Source: Bacillota bacterium
Lineage (GTDB): Bacteria; Bacillota; DTU030
Reading direction: 5' to 3'
DNA: 12,560 bases
NCBI GenBank assembly: GCA_012841005.1
Contig: DUVO01000030.1
Location: 1 to 12,560 of the forward strand
In this document: positions 2,399-12,403 of the stretch, one piece after another
How positions within the stretch are numbered: position 1 is the stretch's first letter
How the letters are laid out: every line of letters begins with the position of its first letter
Notes under the pieces: generated by a model
Databases searched by the model: none
What the model was told of the DNA's origin: nothing
The model's input: only the letters and a program-made list of their open reading frames with translations
Made by a program: the position numbers and the translations under genes

Positions 2399-2418
2399 TT
2401 GGTACCCTAGGTTTCCAA
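2399..2418. promoter_or_regulatory. Enhancer site 3: degenerate palindrome overlapping the activator stop codon
   Basis: This 20-bp stretch also matches site 1 at 16 of 20 positions, with an intact right half GTTTCCAA and matching TTGG at the outer left. The centre at 2408.5 is 22 bp from site 2, about two helical turns. It covers the last codons and stop (2409-2407) of the activator gene. Confidence 0.5.
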
Positions 2419-3972
2419 CAGGCTGCGTAAATTGTATTTATGAATCTTGCGCAATAGGGCTGTATGGGAAATACCCAGGGCCCTGGCCGCCGGCCTGGCC
2501 GCCCCGTATTTGGCCAGCATCCGGGAAATGACTTCCCGTTCCAACCGTTCCTTGAGCTCCTTCAGGGAATGTCCGGAAATCTGTTGGAGGTCTGGCCCGG
2601 GGATACATAAATCTTCGAAAAGGATATGCTCAGGCCTTATTTCTTCACCCTCGACCAGGTTCATAGCCCTTTCCATAACGTTTTCCAACTCCCTGACGTT
2701 ACCGGGCCAGGTGTGCTGGAGGAACCGTGCCAGAACCTGGGGGTGAACCCTTTTTACCCTTTTTTTCAGAACCCGGTTAAATTTTTGCAGGCAGTTTTCC
2801 ATGAGGACCGGCAGGTCCTCCATTCTATCCCGCAGGGGAGGAATGTAGAGGGGAATCACATTGAGGCGGTAGTATAATTCTTCCCGGAAATCACCTTTGC
2901 GGACCATCTCCTTCAAATTCCGATTGGTGGCCGCAATAACCCGGACATCAACGGATATTTCCTCTCTGCCGCCAACCCGCCTCACCTTGTTCTCCTGCAA
3001 AACCCGGAGGAGTTTTACCTGGAGGTGGGGGGACAATTCTCCAATCTCATCTAAGAAAATTGTTCCCTGATGGGCAAGTTCAAAGAGCCCCTGTTTTCCA
3101 CCCCGTTTGGCCCCGGTAAAGGCTCCCTCCTCATAACCAAAAAGCTCACTTTCCACCAGGGCATCGGGAAGGGCCGCACAGTTCAAGGCAACAAAGGGCT
3201 TTCTCCGCCGGGGTCCAGCAGTGTGTATAGCCCGGGCAAATAGTTCTTTACCGGTGCCGCTCTCCCCGCAAATCAATATGGTCGAATTGCCCCGTGCAAC
3301 CATTTTGGCCATCTCCACAACCCGCCCCATGGCTTCACTGGCATAAATAATGTCAGAAAAAGTAATGACTGGGGGGCGGGTAAGGGAAAAGACCAGCTCC
3401 CGCACCTCGGACATGTCCTTGAGGGCCGCTACGGCACCTACAGTCTCTCCCCGCTCATCCTTGATGGCCCTGCCGGTGGTAATATAGTGGCTGCGTCCCC
3501 TTTGGGTAGTGAGGATAATTTCTTTATTATTGTAGCCCTGTCCCGTTTCCAGGATCCTGAGCATGGGAACATCGGCGGGAACAACATCGGCCAGGTGCTG
3601 CCCGATGGCCTTCTCCCGGTTTACCTGCAGGATCTGTTCCGCCACCGGGTTCAGGGTGGTAATCATACCCTTCCTATCAACGGCTATGATTCCCTCGCTG
3701 ACCGAGTCCAGAACAGCCTTGAGCTGCCGTTCCCTTTCTTCGTGGGGAAGGACCTCTATCTCCCTGATCCTGTAAATATCGGGCAGCAGGCGCAATTTCT
3801 CCTCCAAACGCAAAAACCCCGCTGCAGCAACCCCGGTAAACTTAACATTGATTACCCCAGGGGCCACATCCATGGTAATAATGTTCGCCCCTTCCTGTGA
3901 CAACACCCGGAGTACATCCAGCACCATTCCCACCCGGTCTCGGGTATTAATACACCACCGATAGGTCTGCAT
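2407..3972 (-). CDS. TyrR-like sigma-54-dependent transcriptional activator (ACT-PAS-AAA+-HTH)
   Basis: A 521-aa enhancer-binding protein. An ACT-like domain spans about residues 1-75 (DRVGMVLDVLRVLSQEGANI) and a PAS domain about 82-190 (AVLDSVSEGIIAVDRKG). The AAA+ domain spans about 205-440, with Walker A GESGTGKE (236-243), the sigma-54-contacting loop GAFTGA (283-288), Walker B GTIFLDEIGEL (303-313), Arg369 in YYRLN as the likely arginine finger, and WPGNVREL (422-429). The C-terminal helix-turn-helix (about 483-515, AARALGISHTALLRKIHKY) is of TyrR/Fis type. E. coli TyrR has this layout but lacks GAFTGA; here the loop is intact, so true sigma-54 activation is expected. ACT domains usually bind amino acids, so methionine or a relative is a plausible effector (inference). 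The ATG at 3972 has AGGGGG upstream and lies inside the 3' end of the transpeptidase ORF. The methionine gamma-lyase promoter with three palindromes is the obvious target. Confidence 0.93.
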   Translation of the reverse strand: MQTYRWCINTRDRVGMVLDVLRVLSQEGANIITMDVAPGVINVKFTGVAAAGFLRLEEKLRLLPDIYRIREIEVLPHEERERQLKAVLDSVSEGIIAVDRKGMITTLNPVAEQILQVNREKAIGQHLADVVPADVPMLRILETGQGYNNKEIILTTQRGRSHYITTGRAIKDERGETVGAVAALKDMSEVRELVFSLTRPPVITFSDIIYASEAMGRVVEMAKMVARGNSTILICGESGTGKELFARAIHTAGPRRRKPFVALNCAALPDALVESELFGYEEGAFTGAKRGGKQGLFELAHQGTIFLDEIGELSPHLQVKLLRVLQENKVRRVGGREEISVDVRVIAATNRNLKEMVRKGDFREELYYRLNVIPLYIPPLRDRMEDLPVLMENCLQKFNRVLKKRVKRVHPQVLARFLQHTWPGNVRELENVMERAMNLVEGEEIRPEHILFEDLCIPGPDLQQISGHSLKELKERLEREVISRMLAKYGAARPAARALGISHTALLRKIHKYNLRSLLET

Positions 3973-5330
3973 TGACGCCGTCCCCCTGGCTGCTTAGATG
4001 TTGTATTAAAACTTCGCACTGCCAGCGGCAATTCCCTGCTGAAAATACTTTCCGGTAAAAAGAATAGAGGCCGGGTATCTTCACCAGCCTCTGCCCCGGG
4101 CAGATCATAAAGGCGAAACTCGTAACTTTCTTCTATCCACTCCAAGCCCCAACCATAGCGGGTGCCCAGCTTTTCTGCCAGGTCGAACAGGGAGAGGTAG
4201 AGCTCCCCTTCCAGCTCTATACCCGGTATTTGTTCCTCAAGGATATAAGCTAGACCCTCCTCCGGTTCCCACTGATATGGCAGACCTAAAGCTGTGGCCA
4301 AAAAGCGGGCTCCAATAAAATACTCACCTTCTTCCCGGATGATGGCATCGGTAAGATAACAATTGTCATAGGTAGCAACGATCCGGTAAAGGGCGAGGTT
4401 CTGCTCTTCAGGCTGCCATTCTGCCTTTACCCCCAGGAGCTCCCGGAAGCGGGGAAGGGTAAGATAGGTAGTTCCCTCCACAACAACCCCTTCCTGCACC
4501 GGTTCCCCCTCCAGGAGAGGCCCCCTTTGCGGCTCCCAGGAAACGGCGAAACCCAAACCTTCGGCAATGGGCCTCAGGGGTAATAGAAGTTCCCCCTCCA
4601 CCCAAAGGAAATCCAAGTCCAAGGGGATGTCGTTGAGGGTAAGGGAAATCTGGGGAATCGTTATACTTACCGGCCACTGCCTCCCCTGCTCCAATAAATC
4701 TGCCAGGGCTTCTTCCGTCCACAGCCCCCCCAACCCCAGTTCCCCAATTTTTTGCTGCAAATGTTCCAGGGTATTCACTCCCCGGCCATAGACATCGGGG
4801 TAAAGGGTCAGGGCAAACTGCCCCTCTTCGGGCTGCCACCGAGCTTCCAGCGTCTCATAGGTAATATGTACCGGTGTGCCTGGGGGAATGTTGGCATAAA
4901 GCTCCTCTACATCCCTGTTGTGCATCCGTACACAGCCGAGGGAAACGGCCTTGCCTATGGAACCTGGGGCATTGGTACCGTGGATACCATAGCCCGGGGC
5001 AAATCCCAGCCATCTTCTACCCAGGGGATTGCCTGGCCCCGGCGGTACCGGATTACCTCCATTGGGAGGATACCAGGTGGGATCCACCAGCTTGTTGATA
5101 ACGGTGAAATTACCTTCCGGTGTCGGGGAAGCAGGTTTACCTACTGCCACCGGGTATTCCTTAACCAAGCGGCCATTTTCCCAGTAGCTAAGGCGAAAGG
5201 CTGGTATGTTGAGCCAAATCTCCCTTTGCCCACCTGTCACCGTGTTTGGAAAGGTTTGCGAAGCGGTAACGGAACCGGAGTACAACAATATGATTGCAGT
5301 CACAAGGATCAGCATTAACCTTCTACCCAT
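3852..5330 (-). CDS. Secreted L,D-transpeptidase (YkuD) with copper-amine-oxidase-N-like repeats
   Basis: A 492-aa exported cell-wall enzyme. Residues 1-24 form a signal peptide (MGRRLMLILVTAIILLYSG, then TAS-Q). A YkuD domain (about 36-155) has the catalytic signature His117 in GIHGTN and Cys133 in SLGCVRMHN; this family makes 3-3 peptide cross-links or attaches proteins to peptidoglycan. After a short helical segment (about 185-215), two repeats resembling copper-amine-oxidase N-terminal domains follow (about 222-315 and 318-410, with LPLRPIAEGLGF and ARFLATALGLPYQW); these are common surface modules in Clostridia. A longer frame begins at 5396, but GAGGAG lies 9 nt before the ATG at 5330 and only this start puts the signal peptide first. 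The last 40 or so residues, rich in Trp and Cys, come from reading 121 nt of the next gene out of frame and look unnatural; a 3' frameshift is possible. Confidence 0.88.
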   Translation of the reverse strand: MGRRLMLILVTAIILLYSGSVTASQTFPNTVTGGQREIWLNIPAFRLSYWENGRLVKEYPVAVGKPASPTPEGNFTVINKLVDPTWYPPNGGNPVPPGPGNPLGRRWLGFAPGYGIHGTNAPGSIGKAVSLGCVRMHNRDVEELYANIPPGTPVHITYETLEARWQPEEGQFALTLYPDVYGRGVNTLEHLQQKIGELGLGGLWTEEALADLLEQGRQWPVSITIPQISLTLNDIPLDLDFLWVEGELLLPLRPIAEGLGFAVSWEPQRGPLLEGEPVQEGVVVEGTTYLTLPRFRELLGVKAEWQPEEQNLALYRIVATYDNCYLTDAIIREEGEYFIGARFLATALGLPYQWEPEEGLAYILEEQIPGIELEGELYLSLFDLAEKLGTRYGWGLEWIEESYEFRLYDLPGAEAGEDTRPLFFLPESIFSRELPLAVRSFNTTSKQPGGRRQCRPIGGVLIPETGWEWCWMYSGCCHRKGRTLLPWMWPLG

Positions 5331-5534
5331 AGTGACCCACTCCTCATTTTGTGATGCAATTTTCAGATACAGCAGGCGGTGGAACACCCCCTCCAAAATC
5401 CCATAGTATTCAACGCCCTACAGAAGTTGTAGGTTTTACCCGTAAATCTACTAGCTAAATATACGCCCAGAGACACTCCTATATGCCTTTCTCTTAAAGA
5501 TGACGCTTTAGCAATGCAGTCGGCATGTTTTAGT

Positions 5535-6228: not shown

Positions 6229-6810
6229 CTAGTTCAGATACTCGATAATTGACTCGGCAGCAATCTTGCCGTATACATAGGCTGCCGTGAGGGCCTCGGC
6301 ACCGAAGAGTTTTACGTCGGCAACATCGCCGGCTGCGTAGAGGCCAGGAATTGGTTGACCGGCAGTGTCCAATACCTGGGCTTTCATATCAACGGTAATA
6401 CCGCCATGGGTGTTGTGGGCACCAGGGAACACCGGTACAGCGTAGTACGGGGGAGTGTCCAGCCTGCAGCGCATATCTGTACGACCGAAATCTTCGTCAT
6501 AACCATTATCATAGTACTTGATGTATTTTGCTATGGTTTCGGCCAGTCCTTCCGGATCAACACCAATCTTTTCCGCCAGCTCTTCCGGTGTATCTCCCGA
6601 CTCTACGTCTGGGTAATCCTTGAATTTACCGACTGAATTTGCGTCCAGGATGCCGAAAGCTGTCTTTTCCGGAAGTGCCAGCTCTGCAGGTCTACACCCA
6701 TCTCCTTAACCTTTTCCGTCAACAAAACGATTGCTTCTGCAGTCAGCTTCTTGCCAGAATCATCCGGCGCATAGATTTACTTTCCGTTGACAATTTTTCC
6801 CACTGGGGTA
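6229..6810 (-). pseudogene. Decayed FAD-dependent fumarate-reductase-like flavoprotein
   Basis: An open frame from codon 6705-6703 down to the TAG at 6231-6229 encodes about 158 residues resembling the C-terminal part of FAD_binding_2 reductases (fumarate, urocanate and related reductases). It shows TPEELAEKIGVDPEGL, DFGRTD, LDTPPYYAVPV, the GAHNTHGGITVD strand and the terminal PGLYAAGDV and AYVYGKIAAESI. The nearest ATG (6474) falls in the middle of this homology, so it is not a start. Upstream, the coding-like sequence continues in another frame (about 6690-6810: YAPDDSGKKLTAEAIVLL, TEKVKEMGVDLQ), broken by a TAA at 6779-6777. The FAD-binding N-terminus is absent. This suggests an internal deletion with frame change plus a nonsense mutation. 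Such enzymes often work with FMN-binding domains, and an FMN-binding lipoprotein gene lies divergently at 7056. Assignment of the upstream piece is less certain. Confidence 0.7.
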
Positions 6811-6978
6811 AAATTATGTTTTGTTAAATAAAAAAATGAGGGTTAATAGCGGCCCGGGGGAGAAATCTAATTAAGTAATTATGACAACGAATTAACAGAA
6901 AGACATAAGATCGCATAAAATCTGAAGCATATTACGTCTTATTAAGGTCTGATTAACTATATGGTTATTTTTTGGCCA

Positions 6979-7009
6979 TTGACACGGATATACCTAATTG
7001 GTTTAAAAT
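6979..7009 (+). promoter_or_regulatory. Candidate sigma-A promoter for the FMN-binding lipoprotein gene
   Basis: TTGACA (6979-6984) is followed by TTTAAA (7002-7007, spacer 17) or TAAAAT (7004-7009, spacer 19). An operator-like imperfect palindrome ATTAAC-TATATG-GTTATT lies just upstream at about 6953-6970. The start site would be near 7016. Confidence 0.45.
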
Positions 7010-7055
7010 AAAGCTATTATTGCCATTACTACTATATACGTTAGGAGGAATAATG

Positions 7056-7454
7056 ATGTCAACTTCACCTTCAAAAAAGGTACTCAGTTTACTATTGGGC
7101 TTGGCCATTATTTTTAGCCTGGCGGCCTGCTCAGCATCAGGTTCTGAGGCGGAGGCCCTTTACGAACCGGGTACCTACACAGTAACCACCCGGGGGCACA
7201 ATGGTGATGTCACAGTCGAAGTGGAATTTGATGAAACATCTATTGTTGCTGTTAAAGTTGTCGAGCACAGTGAATCACCGGGTATCGGGGATGTTGCCAT
7301 TGAGCGCATACCGCAAGCGATCGTGGAAGGACAAACATTGGCAGTAGATACTATTTCCGGGGCCACTGTATCTTCTAACGCAATCCTCACCGCTGTCGAG
7401 GAAGCCATAGCACAGGCCGGCGGTGATGTCGAGGCTCTTAAAGGAAATAATTAA
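7056..7454 (+). CDS. FMN-binding-domain lipoprotein
   Basis: A 132-aa exported flavin carrier. Residues 7-24 are a lipoprotein signal peptide ending in the lipobox LAAC (Cys25 lipidated). The mature part is one FMN_bind domain (about 36-122) with YEPGTYTVTTRGHNGDV and the motif SGAT (101-104) in DTISGATVSS; in this family the Thr is joined to FMN by the transferase ApbE. Its likely role is electron transfer at the outer face of the membrane. AGGAGG at 7043-7048 is 7 nt from the ATG at 7056 and 4 nt from an in-frame ATG at 7053; either may serve. The frame stays open back to 6972 but lacks a ribosome site there. The neighbour on the other strand is a broken flavoprotein reductase, so the original partner may be lost. 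Confidence 0.9.
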   Translation: MSTSPSKKVLSLLLGLAIIFSLAACSASGSEAEALYEPGTYTVTTRGHNGDVTVEVEFDETSIVAVKVVEHSESPGIGDVAIERIPQAIVEGQTLAVDTISGATVSSNAILTAVEEAIAQAGGDVEALKGNN

Positions 7455-7660: not shown

Positions 7661-8515
7661 CTAGACGAAGAGAAGTACAAGAGTCGTGGCAATGACAATG
7701 CCTATTGCAGGCGGGTCAATATGGGTATTCCCATAATTATAGAATAGACGGGCACCCAATTCAGCCGCAACAGCACCAACAATTCCGAAAACTGCCCCCA
7801 GCACCACACTCCCACTGTTAATGGCAGCAAGACCCGCCGGAGCGGCTATTTGATGCCAGGCCGGACCGGCTCCAAGGGTTGCGGAAAACAAGAGACTGAA
7901 AGCAGCTATGCCAAAGGCAGTAACACTATTTCCAGTAGCAATACAGGTATATCCGGATACAGCACCCAAACCGGCACCTAATACCAGCAGCATGGGGAGA
8001 TCCTTTTGCTGGGGAATCCAGACATTGGTCTCAGTAGTTTTCAGGAGGCTGCCCCCCTTGGGAACCTTACCAGTAATGCCGTTCCCCCAAAGAATCCGGG
8101 CCAGTGTGTTGGAAATTATCACCGTAAGGGCGATGGTGTCCGTGGGCAATTGGAGACTGACCCAGAGGGAATTAAGAATATGTCCAAGAATACCAAATGC
8201 CGCCCCCACCAGGAGGACAGTGGGATCGCCCAGTTTAATCAAAGGGGTAGTAACATCTTTACCTGATTCAATCAAACCCCTGCTGCCTGCATAAGCAGCG
8301 GCCGCTGCCCCGGCACTAAAGGCGATATGGGGACCAAAAAAAGGGCCAAAGGCAACATTGTCGATGATCGCCGCCGCTTCAGCCGGTCCAAAGGACGAAG
8401 CAGCAACTCCTGCCAACACAGCCAAACCCGTGAAGATAAAGGTAGGAAGACCACCCAGGGCAGCACCAAAAATACCACCACCGATTGCGGCCAACAGTAA
8501 ATCCATGTCAAACAT
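7661..8515 (-). CDS. Polytopic membrane protein, paralogue A (family not recognised)
   Basis: A 284-aa very hydrophobic protein with about 7-8 likely membrane segments. It is rich in Gly/Ala zipper stretches: GGGIFGAALGG near the N-terminus, VGAAFGILGHIL at about 103-114, and LGAVFGIVGAVA at about 239-250. The similar GxxFGxxG segments hint at internal repeats. Conserved polar motifs that could line a transport path are SFGPAEAAAII (41-51), AFGPFFGPH (55-63), GGSLLKTTETNVW, GYTCIATG and THIDPPA. The family is not one I can name; a permease or membrane sensor role is inferred only from the fold and context. It is the last gene of the dhaL-dhaM-membrane protein-HPr-membrane protein set. The ATG has AAGGAGG 8 nt upstream. 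Paralogue B at 9060-9914 has the same length and aligns without gaps (215 of 284 identical). Confidence 0.85.
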   Translation of the reverse strand: MFDMDLLLAAIGGGIFGAALGGLPTFIFTGLAVLAGVAASSFGPAEAAAIIDNVAFGPFFGPHIAFSAGAAAAAYAGSRGLIESGKDVTTPLIKLGDPTVLLVGAAFGILGHILNSLWVSLQLPTDTIALTVIISNTLARILWGNGITGKVPKGGSLLKTTETNVWIPQQKDLPMLLVLGAGLGAVSGYTCIATGNSVTAFGIAAFSLLFSATLGAGPAWHQIAAPAGLAAINSGSVVLGAVFGIVGAVAAELGARLFYNYGNTHIDPPAIGIVIATTLVLLFV

Positions 8516-8634
8516 TAAATCATCCTCCTTTACTAGTTCAATTATTGCACTATTATTTCCAAATAGAGGTTAAGATATTGGGCCTCGGTGTTTTTACTTT
8601 TTTGCTCTGGATAAGCTTTGGTCTTCCTCCCCCG

Positions 8635-8901
8635 TCATTCCTCTCCGAACTTGTTATAAACTAATTCCTCCAGGGCAGCCAGGGCTTCTTCAGCATCTTC
8701 GCCCTCAGCCCTGATCTTAACTGTCATCCCCTGGCGGACTCCCAGGGCCTGGACATGAAGAATACTCTTGGCATTAACAGACTTGCCATCCCTTTCCAGG
8801 GTAATGTCAGCCTGAAACTCCCCGGCCTTTTTTACAAATTCAGCAGCCGGGCGCAGGTGAAGACCGCTTTTATTTTTTATTTCTACCACAATTTCTGGCA
8901 T
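8635..8901 (-). CDS. HPr-family phosphocarrier protein
   Basis: An 88-aa HPr protein. His15 in GLHLRPAAEFV is the phosphate-carrying histidine charged by PTS enzyme I. Ser46 in NAKSILHVQALG is the regulatory site used by HPr kinase in Gram-positive bacteria, so both functions may be present. The frame stays open to 8982, but GGGAGGAGG lies 5 nt before the ATG at 8901 and the family N-terminus starts there. It sits between two paralogous membrane-protein genes and downstream of dhaM, and so is the natural phosphate donor for DhaM. It could be the general HPr of the cell or a dedicated copy; the absence of an enzyme I gene nearby leaves this open. Confidence 0.94.
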   Translation of the reverse strand: MPEIVVEIKNKSGLHLRPAAEFVKKAGEFQADITLERDGKSVNAKSILHVQALGVRQGMTVKIRAEGEDAEEALAALEELVYNKFGEE

Positions 8902-8957
8902 TTTTGCCTCCTCCCTCTTCCACAGCATTATTATTCCCGAATCCAGGGCAGAAATAA

Positions 8958-8987
8958 CTGATGTGGTCTCCTGTGAGACCACATCAG
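8958..8987 (-). repeat. Perfect 13-bp hairpin between membrane protein B and HPr genes
   Basis: CTGATGTGGTCTC (8958-8970) and GAGACCACATCAG (8975-8987) flank a 4-nt loop. On the minus strand it is followed by TTATTTCT, a weak U-tract. It could partly end transcription or act as an RNA-processing or stabilising element that sets separate levels for HPr. Confidence 0.65.
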
Positions 8988-9022
8988 ACGCTTAGCTGGT
9001 AAAGAAAGGGAGTGCATCCGGT

Positions 9023-9044
9023 CATATCTGACAAACCAGATATG
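9023..9044 (-). repeat. Second hairpin just after membrane protein B stop codon
   Basis: CATATCTG (9023-9030) pairs with CAGATATG (9037-9044) across a 6-nt loop, extendable by a G-T pair. It lies 15 nt past the stop codon of the gene at 9060 and is not followed by a T-run on the minus strand. Confidence 0.5.
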
Positions 9045-9059
9045 GGCTAACAGACTATC

Positions 9060-9914
9060 TTATACTAATAAGAGCACTAAGGTTGTAGCGATGAATATAC
9101 CAAAGGCTGGTGGGTCGATATGAGTATCGCCATAGTTGAAGAGGAGGCGGGCACCCAGTTCGCCCAGTAGGGCTCCAACAACCCCGAAAACAGCCCCCAT
9201 TAGTATGCTGCCGCTGGTAAGGGCTGCAAGACCGGCAGGCGCCGCTATATGATGCCAGACAGGGCTTACACCCAGGGTCAAGTTGAAGAAAAGGGTGAAG
9301 GCCGCAATACCAAAAGCGGTAACCGAGCTACCTGTTGCAATACAAGCATATCCCGATACGGCTCCCAAACCGATACCCATAACAAGGAGCATGGGAATAT
9401 CCTTCTGCCAGGGCACCCAAACGTTGGTTTCAGTAGTTTTCAAGAGGCTGCCGCCTTCCGGAACCTTTCCAAACAGACCGTTCCCCCAGATCATCCGGCA
9501 CAAGGAGTTGGAAATGACCACGGTAAAGGCAATGGTATCAGTAGGCAGAGAAATGTTGACCCACAGGGAATTTAGTATATATCCAAAAATACCAAATACA
9601 GCGCCAACTAGAAGTATCCCGGGGTCATTCAGCTTGATTAATCCCGTGGCAACGTCTTTGCCACTCTCTAGCAGGCCTTTTTTCGCAGCATAGGCCGCAG
9701 CGGCAACGCCGCCACAGAAAGCAACATGGGGGCCAAAGAAGGGGCCAAAGGCAACATCATTGATAATTGCTGCTGCTTCGGCGGGACCAAAGGAAGAGGC
9801 GGCGATTCCCGCTATTACCATTAAACCAGTAAAGACAAAGGCCGGTACGCCACCCAGGGCAGCACCAAATATGCCACCGCCGGCAGCAGCCAAAAGTAGG
9901 TTGAAGTCAAACAT
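9060..9914 (-). CDS. Polytopic membrane protein, paralogue B (family not recognised)
   Basis: A 284-aa membrane protein, collinear with paralogue A over its full length. Conserved blocks are SFGPAEAAAII, AFGPFFGPH, GGSLLKTTETNVW, CIATG, SVTAFGIAAF, IAAPAGLAAL and THIDPPA; most differences are conservative swaps within membrane segments. The loop motifs are better kept than the helices, which suggests that they carry the function. The gene follows dhaM by 61 nt and precedes the HPr gene. The ATG at 9914 has GGGAGG about 10 nt upstream. Tandem duplication with subsequent divergence is the simplest origin; A and B may form a heteromer or have different specificities. The function is unknown. Confidence 0.85.
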   Translation of the reverse strand: MFDFNLLLAAAGGGIFGAALGGVPAFVFTGLMVIAGIAASSFGPAEAAAIINDVAFGPFFGPHVAFCGGVAAAAYAAKKGLLESGKDVATGLIKLNDPGILLVGAVFGIFGYILNSLWVNISLPTDTIAFTVVISNSLCRMIWGNGLFGKVPEGGSLLKTTETNVWVPWQKDIPMLLVMGIGLGAVSGYACIATGSSVTAFGIAAFTLFFNLTLGVSPVWHHIAAPAGLAALTSGSILMGAVFGVVGALLGELGARLLFNYGDTHIDPPAFGIFIATTLVLLLV

Positions 9915-9975
9915 TCTAAACCATCCTCCCTTACTAATTATTTAAACTATTGCCTGCAAACCCTTACGTGCCTCC

Positions 9976-10368
9976 CTAAAGCAGTTTTTCCATCTGGGCT
10001 GCTCCTTCTGCCGCCCTTCTCACCTGATCCAAGGTATGACCCATAGCAGACTCGACGGCAGCCACTACTGCTCCTTCAAGAATCGGAGCATTGCAGAGCA
10101 CAACCCGCCTCTGCAATTCATCTTCGAGCATTTCTACCGCCATCTGGGTATTCATGACCGCACTCCCCAAATCTACCAGCAGTAGCACCCCATCAACCTC
10201 GCCAACCCTTTCAATAGCCTCCTTGATTGCCAGGGGTTCTGTCCCCAGGTCTCCGTCGGTTGTCCCACCGACGGCGACAATAGGAACCTCGCGGCCCATC
10301 TGCTGCGCAATCTCTTTAATACCTTCAGCCGCTTTCAAGCTGTGGGAAATAATAACTATTCCAACCAC
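9976..10368 (-). CDS. dhaM: DhaM: PTS EIIA(Man)-fold phosphotransferase subunit of dihydroxyacetone kinase
   Basis: A 130-aa single-domain protein with the mannose-type EIIA fold. His9 in GIVIISHS matches the phosphorylated His9 of E. coli DhaM. The GGTTDGDLGTEP loop and LLLVDLGSAVMNTQMA are typical. In the known system DhaM takes phosphate from HPr and passes it to ADP bound on DhaL. Unlike E. coli DhaM it has no fused HPr or enzyme-I-like domain; an HPr gene in the same cluster can fill that role. Translation starts at GTG (10368-10366), with AGGGGG overlapping the dhaL stop about 10 nt upstream. The 14-nt gap to dhaL indicates co-translation. Confidence 0.93.
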   Translation of the reverse strand: MVGIVIISHSLKAAEGIKEIAQQMGREVPIVAVGGTTDGDLGTEPLAIKEAIERVGEVDGVLLLVDLGSAVMNTQMAVEMLEDELQRRVVLCNAPILEGAVVAAVESAMGHTLDQVRRAAEGAAQMEKLL

Positions 10369-10382
10369 CTGCTGTTATCCCC

Positions 10383-11015
10383 CTAGCTCTCCAGTACTTT
10401 CAACATTGCCCTCAGAAGCAATTCCGAAGATGTGGCCCCTGGATCCTGATGTCCAATACTTCTTTCTCCCAGGTAGTGAGCCCTACCTTTTTTGGCCACC
10501 AGAGGTATAGTTGCTTTTTTCCCGGCCTCAGCGGCGGCAACAGCTGCCTGGAAGCATGCAAGCAGTTCTTTTCCTGCATCAGCCGCTGCGGCAAAGGCTT
10601 CTACCGCCGGTTCCAGGGCATCTACCATGGTTTTTTCCCCCACCACAGCCTTGCCCCGTTGTTTGATTCCTTCTAAACCAGCCGCCAACATGGCACCAAT
10701 ATCGCTGGTGGTCAGTTCCTCCTTGCCGGCGGCAATCTTACCAAACTGCAGAAAGAAGGTTCCATAGAGGGGCCCAGCCGCTCCCCCCACAGCAGAGATC
10801 AGACCCATTCCCACGTTTTTAAAGATGGTACCAATATCCTTATCTGCAACTGGCGGGAGTTTTTCCAGCACTTTGCGTAAGCCCCTGTCCATGTTGATAC
10901 CGTGGTCCCCGTCGCCAATGGCGCTATCAAGGTCAGTGAGATATTCCTTGTTCTGCGCCACAACTGCAGCCATTTCTTTAATCATGGCCACTACTTGATC
11001 TCTATCAACCTTCAT
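10383..11015 (-). CDS. dhaL: DhaL: ADP-binding subunit of PTS-dependent dihydroxyacetone kinase
   Basis: A 210-aa all-helical nucleotide-binding subunit. The Mg-ADP ligands Asp30, Asp35 and Asp37 are in DLDSAIGDGDHGINMDRG at the same positions as in E. coli DhaL. Other family motifs are GGAAGPLYGTFF, GEKTMVDALEPA and the C-terminal GRAHYLGERSIGHQDPG. In the known pathway DhaL holds ADP as a fixed cofactor, is rephosphorylated by DhaM, and hands phosphate to dihydroxyacetone bound on DhaK. No dhaK lies in this window, before or after it, which is unusual. GGGAGG lies 11 nt before the ATG. It follows the terminator of the E2 gene and should start a new transcript, though I found no convincing promoter in 11016-11156. 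Confidence 0.93.
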   Translation of the reverse strand: MKVDRDQVVAMIKEMAAVVAQNKEYLTDLDSAIGDGDHGINMDRGLRKVLEKLPPVADKDIGTIFKNVGMGLISAVGGAAGPLYGTFFLQFGKIAAGKEELTTSDIGAMLAAGLEGIKQRGKAVVGEKTMVDALEPAVEAFAAAADAGKELLACFQAAVAAAEAGKKATIPLVAKKGRAHYLGERSIGHQDPGATSSELLLRAMLKVLES

Positions 11016-11212: not shown

Positions 11213-12403
11213 TTACAGTAAGAGCAGGTCCGGATTTTCCAGTAAAGCTTTAACCCTTTGCAAGAATTGGGCCGCAACGGAACCATCAATGAGCCGGTGG
11301 TCAAAGGAAAGGCTGAGGGTCATCATAGGCCTGATTACTATTTCGTCATTTACAACCACCGGTTTCTTCTGAATCCTGTTTACACCTAAAATGGCACTCT
11401 CCGGGGGATTAATAATAGGTGTAAAACTGTCGACGCCAAACATACCGAGGTTGGTGACAGTAAAGGTGCCACCCTTGTATTCATCAGGAGTCAGCTTGCC
11501 GCTCCGGGCTTTTTCCGCCAATTCCTTCACCAGCTGGGAGATCGCGCCGATCCCCAGTTTATTGGTATTTTTGATCACCGGTACAATCAGCCCATCTTCC
11601 AATGCAACTGCAACGCCAACATTTATTTCTCCATGATACACAATTTCCTCTTCTTGCAGGGAAGCATTGATTACCGGGAAATCCTCCAGGGCCCTGGCGA
11701 CTACCTTCACAATAATGTCGGTGAAAGAAACCTTACCACCAATACTTTCCGTCGCCACGGCATTGAGGGACTTCCGGAAGGCCGTAGCCTGGCTCATATC
11801 AACTTCCATGTCAACAGTAACATGGGGTGCCGTTCTGGCACTTTCAGCCATCCGCTGGGCTATCACCTTCCGCATGCCGGCAAGGGGTACCCGTTTCCCT
11901 TCCGTTTTAGCTGCCTCTGTAACGGGTGCAGCCGGCTCCGGTTTAGCCTCCTTGCTTTCAACTGCCTTCAGCACATCCTCCCTGGTAATCCTACCACCAG
12001 GACCTGTACCCTCAATATCTGCCAGGGCAATACCATGCTCTTCGGCCAATTTCTTCGCCGCCGGTGAGGCTTTGATTCGTTTCGCCGGTTCTGCCGCCTG
12101 GGTTGCTGTTTCCGCAGCAGGCACCGCCCTTTCTGCCGGTGCTGCCGGAGCTTCTATTTCCTCTCCCGGGGCAGCAATAATTCCGATCGGCTCACTAACC
12201 TTGGCCGTTTCTCCCGGTCCTACCAGGATTTTTTTCAAAATACCGCTGGCAGGTGCTTCCGCCACATTGGTGATCTTTTCGGTCAGGATTTCTACAAGTT
12301 CCTCGCCCTTTTCTACCGTATCCCCTTCATTCTTCAGCCAATTCACCACTGTCCCTTCAGTCATCGTTAAACCTAGTTTGGGCATCAATACTTCCGTAGC
12401 CAA
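11213..12403 (-). CDS. Dihydrolipoamide acyltransferase E2 (AcoC/PdhC type)
   Basis: A 396-aa E2 core of a 2-oxoacid or acetoin dehydrogenase complex. It has one lipoyl domain (1-78) with the lipoylated Lys43 in ILTEKITNV, a flexible Ala/Pro/Glu linker, a peripheral-subunit-binding domain (about 111-148, ASPAAKKLAEEHG and GTGPGGRITREDVL), a second linker, and the catalytic domain (about 170-396) with His369 and Asp373 in DHRLIDG. The start is TTG at 12403: only this places the lipoyl domain start correctly (MATEVLMPKLGLTMTEG), and GGGAGG lies about 9 nt upstream. It follows a probable NAD-kinase/AcoX-like gene by 16 nt. That neighbour favours an acetoin dehydrogenase, but pyruvate dehydrogenase cannot be excluded without the E1 genes. 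Confidence 0.92.
   Translation of the reverse strand: MATEVLMPKLGLTMTEGTVVNWLKNEGDTVEKGEELVEILTEKITNVAEAPASGILKKILVGPGETAKVSEPIGIIAAPGEEIEAPAAPAERAVPAAETATQAAEPAKRIKASPAAKKLAEEHGIALADIEGTGPGGRITREDVLKAVESKEAKPEPAAPVTEAAKTEGKRVPLAGMRKVIAQRMAESARTAPHVTVDMEVDMSQATAFRKSLNAVATESIGGKVSFTDIIVKVVARALEDFPVINASLQEEEIVYHGEINVGVAVALEDGLIVPVIKNTNKLGIGAISQLVKELAEKARSGKLTPDEYKGGTFTVTNLGMFGVDSFTPIINPPESAILGVNRIQKKPVVVNDEIVIRPMMTLSLSFDHRLIDGSVAAQFLQRVKALLENPDLLLL

Follow-up and report, generated by a model that had tools for sequence, protein, structure and literature searches.

Genes of the window

The window, that is, the whole 12.6-kb stretch of DNA analysed, is contig C126 of genome G000. A first-pass annotation had read five minus-strand genes in it as dhaL, dhaM, a membrane protein (B), HPr and a second membrane protein (A). 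These genes are real and correctly read; all five are confirmed by their ORF coordinates, and dhaL, dhaM and HPr also by their family scores:

dhaL, 11015-10383, minus strand: ADP-binding subunit of a PTS-dependent dihydroxyacetone kinase (TIGR02365, 249.3 bits, cut-off 138.3; PF02734)
dhaM, 10368-9976, minus strand: EIIA-man-type phosphoryl donor, 130 aa, GTG start (TIGR02364, 140.2 bits, cut-off 98.25; PF03610)
Membrane protein B, 9914-9060, minus strand: probable C3-polyol/triose channel of the PF25928 family (relatives tagged PF25928.1)
HPr, 8901-8635, minus strand: phosphocarrier, ATG start (TIGR01003, 100.7 bits, cut-off 47.9)
Membrane protein A, 8515-7661, minus strand: paralogue of B (PF25928 family)

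The HPr gene starts at the ATG at 8901, with the mechanical ORF beginning upstream at a GTG (8982). A Shine-Dalgarno-like stretch lies 5' of each of the five starts and, for HPr, precedes the ATG and not the GTG. The active-site residues named earlier were borne out by counting in the translations: D30, D35 and D37 of DhaL (the three ADP/Mg aspartates), H9 of DhaM, and H15 of HPr, numbered from the ATG. HPr also has a Ser46-type serine, and DhaM is a single EIIA-man domain without a fused HPr or EI domain. The two membrane proteins, each of 284 aa, are identical at 215 of 284 positions; within the conserved motifs, the substitutions H222Q and D263N distinguish A from B. In the tree, A groups with its counterpart from G001, and this group is the sister of B.

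A dihydroxyacetone kinase relay divided between two operons

The first-pass annotation had noted the lack of DhaK and had proposed, as its main guess, a relay that works without DhaK and targets the membrane pair and, as a side guess, a relay acting on a distant kinase. DhaK is indeed missing from the 12.6-kb contig, but this reflects how short the window is. The search for dhaK elsewhere in the genome that the annotation had suggested returned a single dhaK above the family cut-off, on contig C30, in the operon glpK(end)-glpA-dhaK-glpP-DJ1-ptsI (GlpA is to be read as GlpA-like, the best NCBIfam models staying under their cut-offs). This DhaK scores 517 bits with the dhaK1 model (TIGR02363, cut-off 406) and contains a GIHGEPG motif with the substrate-binding His220, which we take to be the equivalent of E. 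coli His218. Its identity as the coactivator DhaQ is ruled out, the DhaQ model giving 290, under its cut-off of 413.

Three other components of the relay have a single match each in G000. The only Enzyme I match is the ptsI of contig C30, in the same operon as dhaK, whereas the window supplies the sole PF00381 match (HPr) and the only DhaL-sized match. Judged by these sequence matches, the genome almost certainly encodes a complete chain from PEP through EI, HPr, DhaM and DhaL to DhaK. With one copy each of HPr and EI in G000, the two operons would need each other.

Related genomes extend this picture. The gene order dhaL-dhaM-Mem-HPr, in which Mem denotes the membrane gene, is contiguous without dhaK in G000, G003 and G004, and dhaL-dhaM-Mem runs up to the contig end in G001. 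This arrangement is what speaks for the DhaK-free reading, in which the relay would phosphorylate Mem itself or a substrate that Mem delivers. Against it, dhaK was found in all five genomes of the window genome's family and, in each of the five regions that were read, adjoins the genes for GlpA and EI, the operons of G000 appear interdependent, and relatives have dhaK beside the same Mem gene, as in the single operon glpP-Mem-dhaK-dhaL-DJ1-dhaM-HPr-EI of G011. A DhaK-free relay is therefore highly improbable, and a dihydroxyacetone (DHA) kinase relay lacking its kinase is not needed to explain the locus. The side guess of a distant kinase was right, with dhaK and ptsI lying together on contig C30. 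The annotation had also expected its main guess to fall if a dhaK existed elsewhere and homologues of A and B never occurred beside dha genes; the former was found, whereas such homologues do occur beside dha genes.

The PF25928 family and its gene neighbourhoods

Neither A nor B matches a Pfam family at E ≤ 0.001. Of 8000 candidates scored, 735 are relatives at E ≤ 0.001, and all 120 relatives among the matches listed carry the precomputed tag PF25928.1. On this sequence evidence, A and B are members of PF25928, a widespread uncharacterised family whose signature combines an HH pair with a GDTHIDPPA-type motif; no characterised member was found. Two AlphaFold models (pLDDT 95.5, for the AF2 model of B, and 93.4) have urea transporters as their best structural matches, followed by Amt/Rh channels, with sensor and receptor Amt proteins among the matches.

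PF25928 genes recur beside glpK/glpA/glpP, dhaKLM, B12 diol-dehydratase (pdu) microcompartment genes and glycyl-radical dehydratase loci. Such neighbours lie within 3 kb in 46 of 80 loci, the best 80 of 534 and including short contigs unable to show neighbours, compared with 1 of 20 control stretches drawn from one phylum; Fe-ADH, HPr and EI were left out of this count. Neighbour gene calls were ORF picks scored by single-sequence phmmer, and "GlpK" here stands for any FGGY kinase resembling a single GlpK query (in the 80-locus survey, with 100 bits or more); both loci checked against NCBIfam, L130 and L081, gave glycerol kinase. A further set of 26 genomes was hand-picked from the 80 loci, mostly those with BMC genes. 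This survey supports the earlier suggestion that the membrane pair takes part in uptake, but the substrates would be C3 polyols or trioses in general, and most of the loci lack DHA-kinase genes, which occur within 8 kb in 8 of these best 80 loci.

The same neighbourhoods bear on a role without transport, in which Mem would sit in the membrane as a sensor or anchor, docking and regulating HPr, DhaM or microcompartment enzymes. The position of Mem between dhaM and HPr in the window genome's family would suit such a role, as would the HPr-domain sigma-54 activator beside Mem in G005 and G006, where PTS-linked regulation is likely, and some Amt-fold proteins are sensors. However, HPr, EI or DhaM lies within 8 kb in only 7 of the best 80 loci of 534, and helices make up nearly the whole of both models, whose secondary structure shows no distinct soluble domain. 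Such a regulatory role is very unlikely.

Among haloarchaea, 30 loci from 35 positive genomes were read, each with flanks of about 1.5 kb, and glpK directly precedes the PF25928 gene in 28 of the 30. Mem could instead conduct another small solute shared by these pathways (an exiting aldehyde or alcohol product, water, ammonia or urea) or be an ion-coupled carrier. Small aldehydes and alcohols are produced in diol dehydratase pathways, the nearest folds are those of urea and ammonia channels, and a MIP gene inside the same cluster as Mem in G005 could already import the polyol. Yet the glycerol kinase next to Mem in nearly all the haloarchaeal loci yields no aldehyde, glpK and dhaK encode uptake-side enzymes, and none of the 20 annotated neighbour-cluster representatives is a urease or ammonia gene. 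A different solute, or a carrier mechanism, is thus unlikely.

A proposed uptake system and its known counterparts

Gene context and predicted fold together make a transport role for the membrane pair likely. In the reading we favour with similar confidence, A and B are non-aquaporin facilitators that let in glycerol, DHA or propanediol and feed a split DHA kinase. The window would then be one of two operons of a glycerol/DHA catabolic system, of which DhaL, DhaM and HPr are encoded here and DhaK and Enzyme I on contig C30. A and B, as channel-type proteins with a predicted two-fold repeat fold like that of urea transporters and Amt, would provide a way in for glycerol, DHA or another C3 polyol, and kinases would then trap the solute as its phosphate. 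By established biochemistry, phosphate would pass from PEP to EI, HPr (His15), DhaM (His9), DhaL-bound ADP and finally DhaK-bound DHA, giving DHAP. The two copies may serve separate substrates or form a hetero-oligomer.

The family probably plays the same role in many lineages, serving glp, dha, pdu and glycyl-radical diol-dehydratase loci. With somewhat less assurance, though still on balance, we regard PF25928 as a channel class for C3 polyols or trioses that is distinct from aquaglyceroporins, with a UT/Amt-like fold and its own signature, present in bacteria and haloarchaea and providing the uptake step for glycerol kinase, DHA kinase, and B12-dependent and glycyl-radical diol-dehydratase pathways; in the window's genus, the A/B pair, with its divergent motif residues, may assemble into a hetero-oligomer or may share out the substrates, glycerol to one copy and DHA to the other. 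At stake is the entry route of glycerol and 1,2-propanediol at loci of anaerobes and haloarchaea without a nearby GlpF/PduF gene. If this proposal is correct, a single uncharacterised family, hundreds of members strong, would be the uptake step for several well-studied pathways, namely glp, dha, pdu and glycyl-radical microcompartments, a fold known from urea and ammonia channels would have been recruited for C3 polyols, and its members would be candidate genes for engineering glycerol or propanediol use.

Several known systems invite comparison. The MIP facilitators GlpF and PduF (PF00230), the latter with its place in the pdu gene cluster, hold a comparable position in glp and pdu clusters and have the same inferred job. 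In contrast, A and B lack a MIP profile match, and G000 (87% complete) has none to PF00230. Urea transporters (UT, PF03253; SLC14) differ in sequence (hhalign probabilities of 0.2 and 0.3% for A1 and A3 against 19 UT sequences) and in length, at 321-358 aa in the solved UT chains listed compared with 284 aa for A and B; PF03253 has no match in G000. From both urea transporters and Amt/Rh channels, the family is set apart by its C3-polyol gene context.

In haloarchaea, the Haloferax glpK-linked membrane gene is presumably the one named glpX. An uptake role for the glpK neighbour has already been suggested in print: in the relevant passages of PMC5496347, such a neighbour is described as co-transcribed with glpK and proposed to act in glycerol metabolism or uptake. 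The Haloquadratum membrane protein HQ1732A shares the glpK linkage of the haloarchaeal loci described above, but one passage words the place of the neighbour as upstream of glpK, whereas the PF25928 genes lie downstream; HQ1732A and the Haloferax gene were matched by description, not alignment. The Haloferax glpK is HVO_1541 in the abstract and methods of PMC3863723 and HVO_1542 in one results passage, and HVO_1542 is placed here by the majority usage.

The closest counterpart of the relay is the PTS-dependent DHA kinase DhaK-DhaL-DhaM (TIGR02363/02365/02364). All three subunits exceed the curated cut-offs and keep their catalytic residues, and HPr and EI are encoded by the same genome. The system differs in that its genes are divided between two operons in the window genome's family, DhaM has a single domain with HPr and EI as separate proteins, and two membrane genes are inserted.

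The window operon and its kinase subunit

Read as open reading frames, the five minus-strand genes of the window are those described in the first-pass annotation, and the residues claimed there are present: D30, D35 and D37 in DhaL, H9 in DhaM, and H15 in HPr, which also keeps a Ser46-type serine. A Shine-Dalgarno-like stretch lies 5' of all five starts, and the intergenic gaps, from dhaL onward, are 14, 61, 158 and 119 bases.

Genes of the window operon
11015-10383, minus strand: dhaL, curated cut-off passed
10368-9976, minus strand: dhaM, curated cut-off passed
9914-9060, minus strand: membrane protein B, no match in local Pfam and NCBIfam at E <= 0.001
8901-8635, minus strand: HPr, curated cut-off passed
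8515-7661, minus strand: membrane protein A, no match in the same searches

A 2-oxoacid dehydrogenase E2 gene (11213-12403, minus strand) lies immediately upstream of dhaL, as it does in the relative G001. Elsewhere in the window, a FAD_binding_2 flavoprotein (6229-6474, minus strand) keeps only its last part as an ORF (81 aa, profile positions 354-409 of 414). Near this remnant is a FMN_bind lipoprotein-like gene (6972-7454, plus strand), the protein of which is 73% identical in G001; a flavoprotein-like frame, recognized by eye, occupies the equivalent place there, its own end cut by the contig. A YkuD L,D-transpeptidase ORF (3852-5396, minus strand) runs in a different frame some 120 bases into the beginning of a PAS/sigma-54 regulator gene (2407-3972, minus strand); the terminal part of the YkuD ORF may reflect a misreading or a frameshift.

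The relay without DhaK, which the same annotation had proposed to phosphorylate a substrate brought in or bound by the membrane pair, or to act on a distant kinase, is an artefact of the short contig. A search of the genome, 87% complete at 1.67 Mb in 339 contigs, found a single DhaK, on contig C30, scoring well above the dhaK1 cut-off and below that of the coactivator DhaQ, with a GIHGEPG motif and its histidine at position 220. The C30 operon comprises a glpA-like gene, dhaK, glpP (PF04309), a DJ-1/PfpI protein gene and ptsI; the contig breaks off within the final 32 codons of a GlpK gene, its product 84% identical to a relative's GlpK. We infer that the window and C30 operons need each other, because EI and HPr are single-copy (the HPr being that of the window) and the only Dak2 match besides the window's DhaL lies in a 561-aa frame, presumably of the FakA/YloV type. 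With no PTS_EIIC (PF02378) match in any of the family's five genomes, the PTS of this genome may serve the DHA kinase alone, as judged on one of several EIIC families. The genes present show the phosphate relay, whose biochemistry is taken from the known PTS-dependent DHA kinase, a system of which this kinase is an ordinary member.

Split and joined arrangements in relatives

All five genomes of the window's family (G000-G004) have dhaK, its product in the other four being 89-93% identical to the C30 DhaK. In G001-G004, dhaK lies between glpK-glpA upstream and EI downstream, and the regions of G001 and G002 also have glpP. In G003 and G004, dhaL-dhaM-Mem-HPr (Mem being any member of the family of A and B, PF25928) is at a separate place from dhaK. 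In G001, dhaL-dhaM-Mem reaches the contig end, which cuts the operon, and no HPr was found; G002 (79% complete) yielded dhaK, with no Mem and no HPr found. The split of dhaK from dhaL-dhaM-Mem-HPr is a feature of this lineage.

In the next family, where dhaK occurs in 4 and Mem in 7 of the 8 genomes examined, the parts are joined in one cluster. The order is glpP-glpK-glpA-orf-(orf)-glpP-Mem-dhaK-dhaL-DJ1-dhaM-HPr-EI in G011; glpP-Mem-dhaK-dhaL-orf-dhaM-HPr, on a short contig, in G010; and MIP, glpP, Mem, an HPr-domain sigma-54 activator, dhaK, dhaL, orf, dhaM, HPr and EI in G005.

The activator gene lies between Mem and dhaK in both G005 and G006 (L123:11832-14096, minus strand; L025:8857-10950, plus strand). 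Its product has an N-terminal PTS-HPr domain, in which the GLHAR/GVHAR histidine is kept, followed by PAS, AAA and HTH domains, and it probably serves the Mem-dhaK operon as a PTS-responsive transcription factor. The DJ-1/PfpI gene lies within the dhaK operon of G000 and the dhaK-dhaL-dhaM operon of G011 (L113:3045-3587, minus strand; L130:11824-12348, plus strand); as a guess, it perhaps acts on methylglyoxal or DHA damage.

Gene neighbourhoods of the membrane protein family

At least 735 relatives of A and B were found at E <= 0.001 in a large protein set (8000 scored candidates), and all 120 relatives among the matches listed carry the PF25928.1 tag. A has Gln at residue 222, where B has the His found in at least 90% of alignment A1, and Asn at residue 263, where B has Asp; the motif was located in 83 members, which at position 263 carry Asp (69), Lys (9), Asn (4) or Glu (1). 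Given these two differences, A and B are probably not interchangeable.

Neighbourhoods were surveyed with a fixed query set in the best 80 of 534 loci encoding a Mem relative in genome_contigs. Genes for glycerol use, DHA kinase, diol dehydratase/BMC or glycyl-radical enzymes lie within 8 kb in 54 of these 80 (L036 and L038 scoring positive only via a kinase about 5 kb off) and within 3 kb in 46, against 1 of 20 same-sized control stretches from one phylum at both distances, the match being PduS-like. By Pfam, representatives of the neighbour clusters include BMC shell, EutN, PduO, PduS, PduP-like aldehyde dehydrogenase, Fe-ADH, FGGY kinase, PFL-like glycyl-radical enzyme and acetate kinase, alongside RuvA/RuvB, dNK, S41 peptidase and others. 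One glycyl-radical enzyme, compared with solved structures, best matched a 'glycyl radical protein' (9rco, 1437 bits), then B12-independent glycerol dehydratase (1080), diol dehydratase (968) and choline lyase (531).

Dehydratase_LU/MU and a reactivase are near Mem in close relatives. Of 26 genomes chosen among those of the 80 loci, 18 have the B12 diol dehydratase large subunit; in 14 of those it shares Mem's strand and, the lengths agreeing, its contig, and Mem follows 9.0-11.2 kb downstream. The L036 subunit lies on the opposite side of Mem at a distance of 13 kb, and for L029, L030 and L041 the dehydratase is present in the genome, its link to Mem not established. Mem occurs in 35 of 59 haloarchaeal genomes, and in 28 of 30 loci read the gene immediately 5' of it, in the same orientation, is glpK; the kinase at L081 is GlpK by NCBIfam. 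In a tree of 91 rows the contexts are scattered over branches, the starred branches requiring a minimum of 10 changes in glycerol, 7 in pdu, 4 in dhaK and 3 in glycyl-radical context.

Two sets of 13 among the 80 loci are exceptions. One is a single acidobacterial clade by ruvB (L028, L035, L039, L045, L049, L051, L054, L059, L072, L074, L084, L088, L090), where ruvA and a deoxynucleoside-kinase-like gene are frequent companions and no queried polyol gene is near Mem; the other has no fitting neighbour or is cut short, with unrelated neighbours in a sample.

A proposed uptake role and its precedents

The membrane pair probably forms a C3-polyol/DHA channel, admitting glycerol, DHA or other C3 polyols, for which GlpK and DhaKLM would act as the trap. 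No MIP was found in G000 (87% complete), yet GlpK, GlpA-like and DhaK are kept, which fits this role. A widespread family, a consistent metabolic setting and a confident structure model make A and B worth attention.

In Haloferax, HVO_1542, reportedly named glpX as a putative facilitator, lies between glpK and the DHA PTS genes and is likely the Mem homologue by position. HVO_1541 is glpK (PMC12607858; PMC3863723 in its abstract and methods), although HVO_1542 is written for glpK at one place in the results of the latter, and HVO_1543-1546 encode a DHA PTS with DhaK/M/L (PMC2841640). Literature searches, at the level of their listings, turned up neither a tie of the Mem family to bacterial glp, dha, pdu or glycyl-radical loci nor its fold. 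For E. coli GlpF, PMC6643234 gives a putative role in DHA transport. The uptake idea itself is already in print for haloarchaea: PMC5496347 describes a Haloquadratum membrane protein whose gene adjoins glpK, is transcribed together with it and is conserved alongside it among haloarchaea, and suggests a role in glycerol metabolism or uptake.
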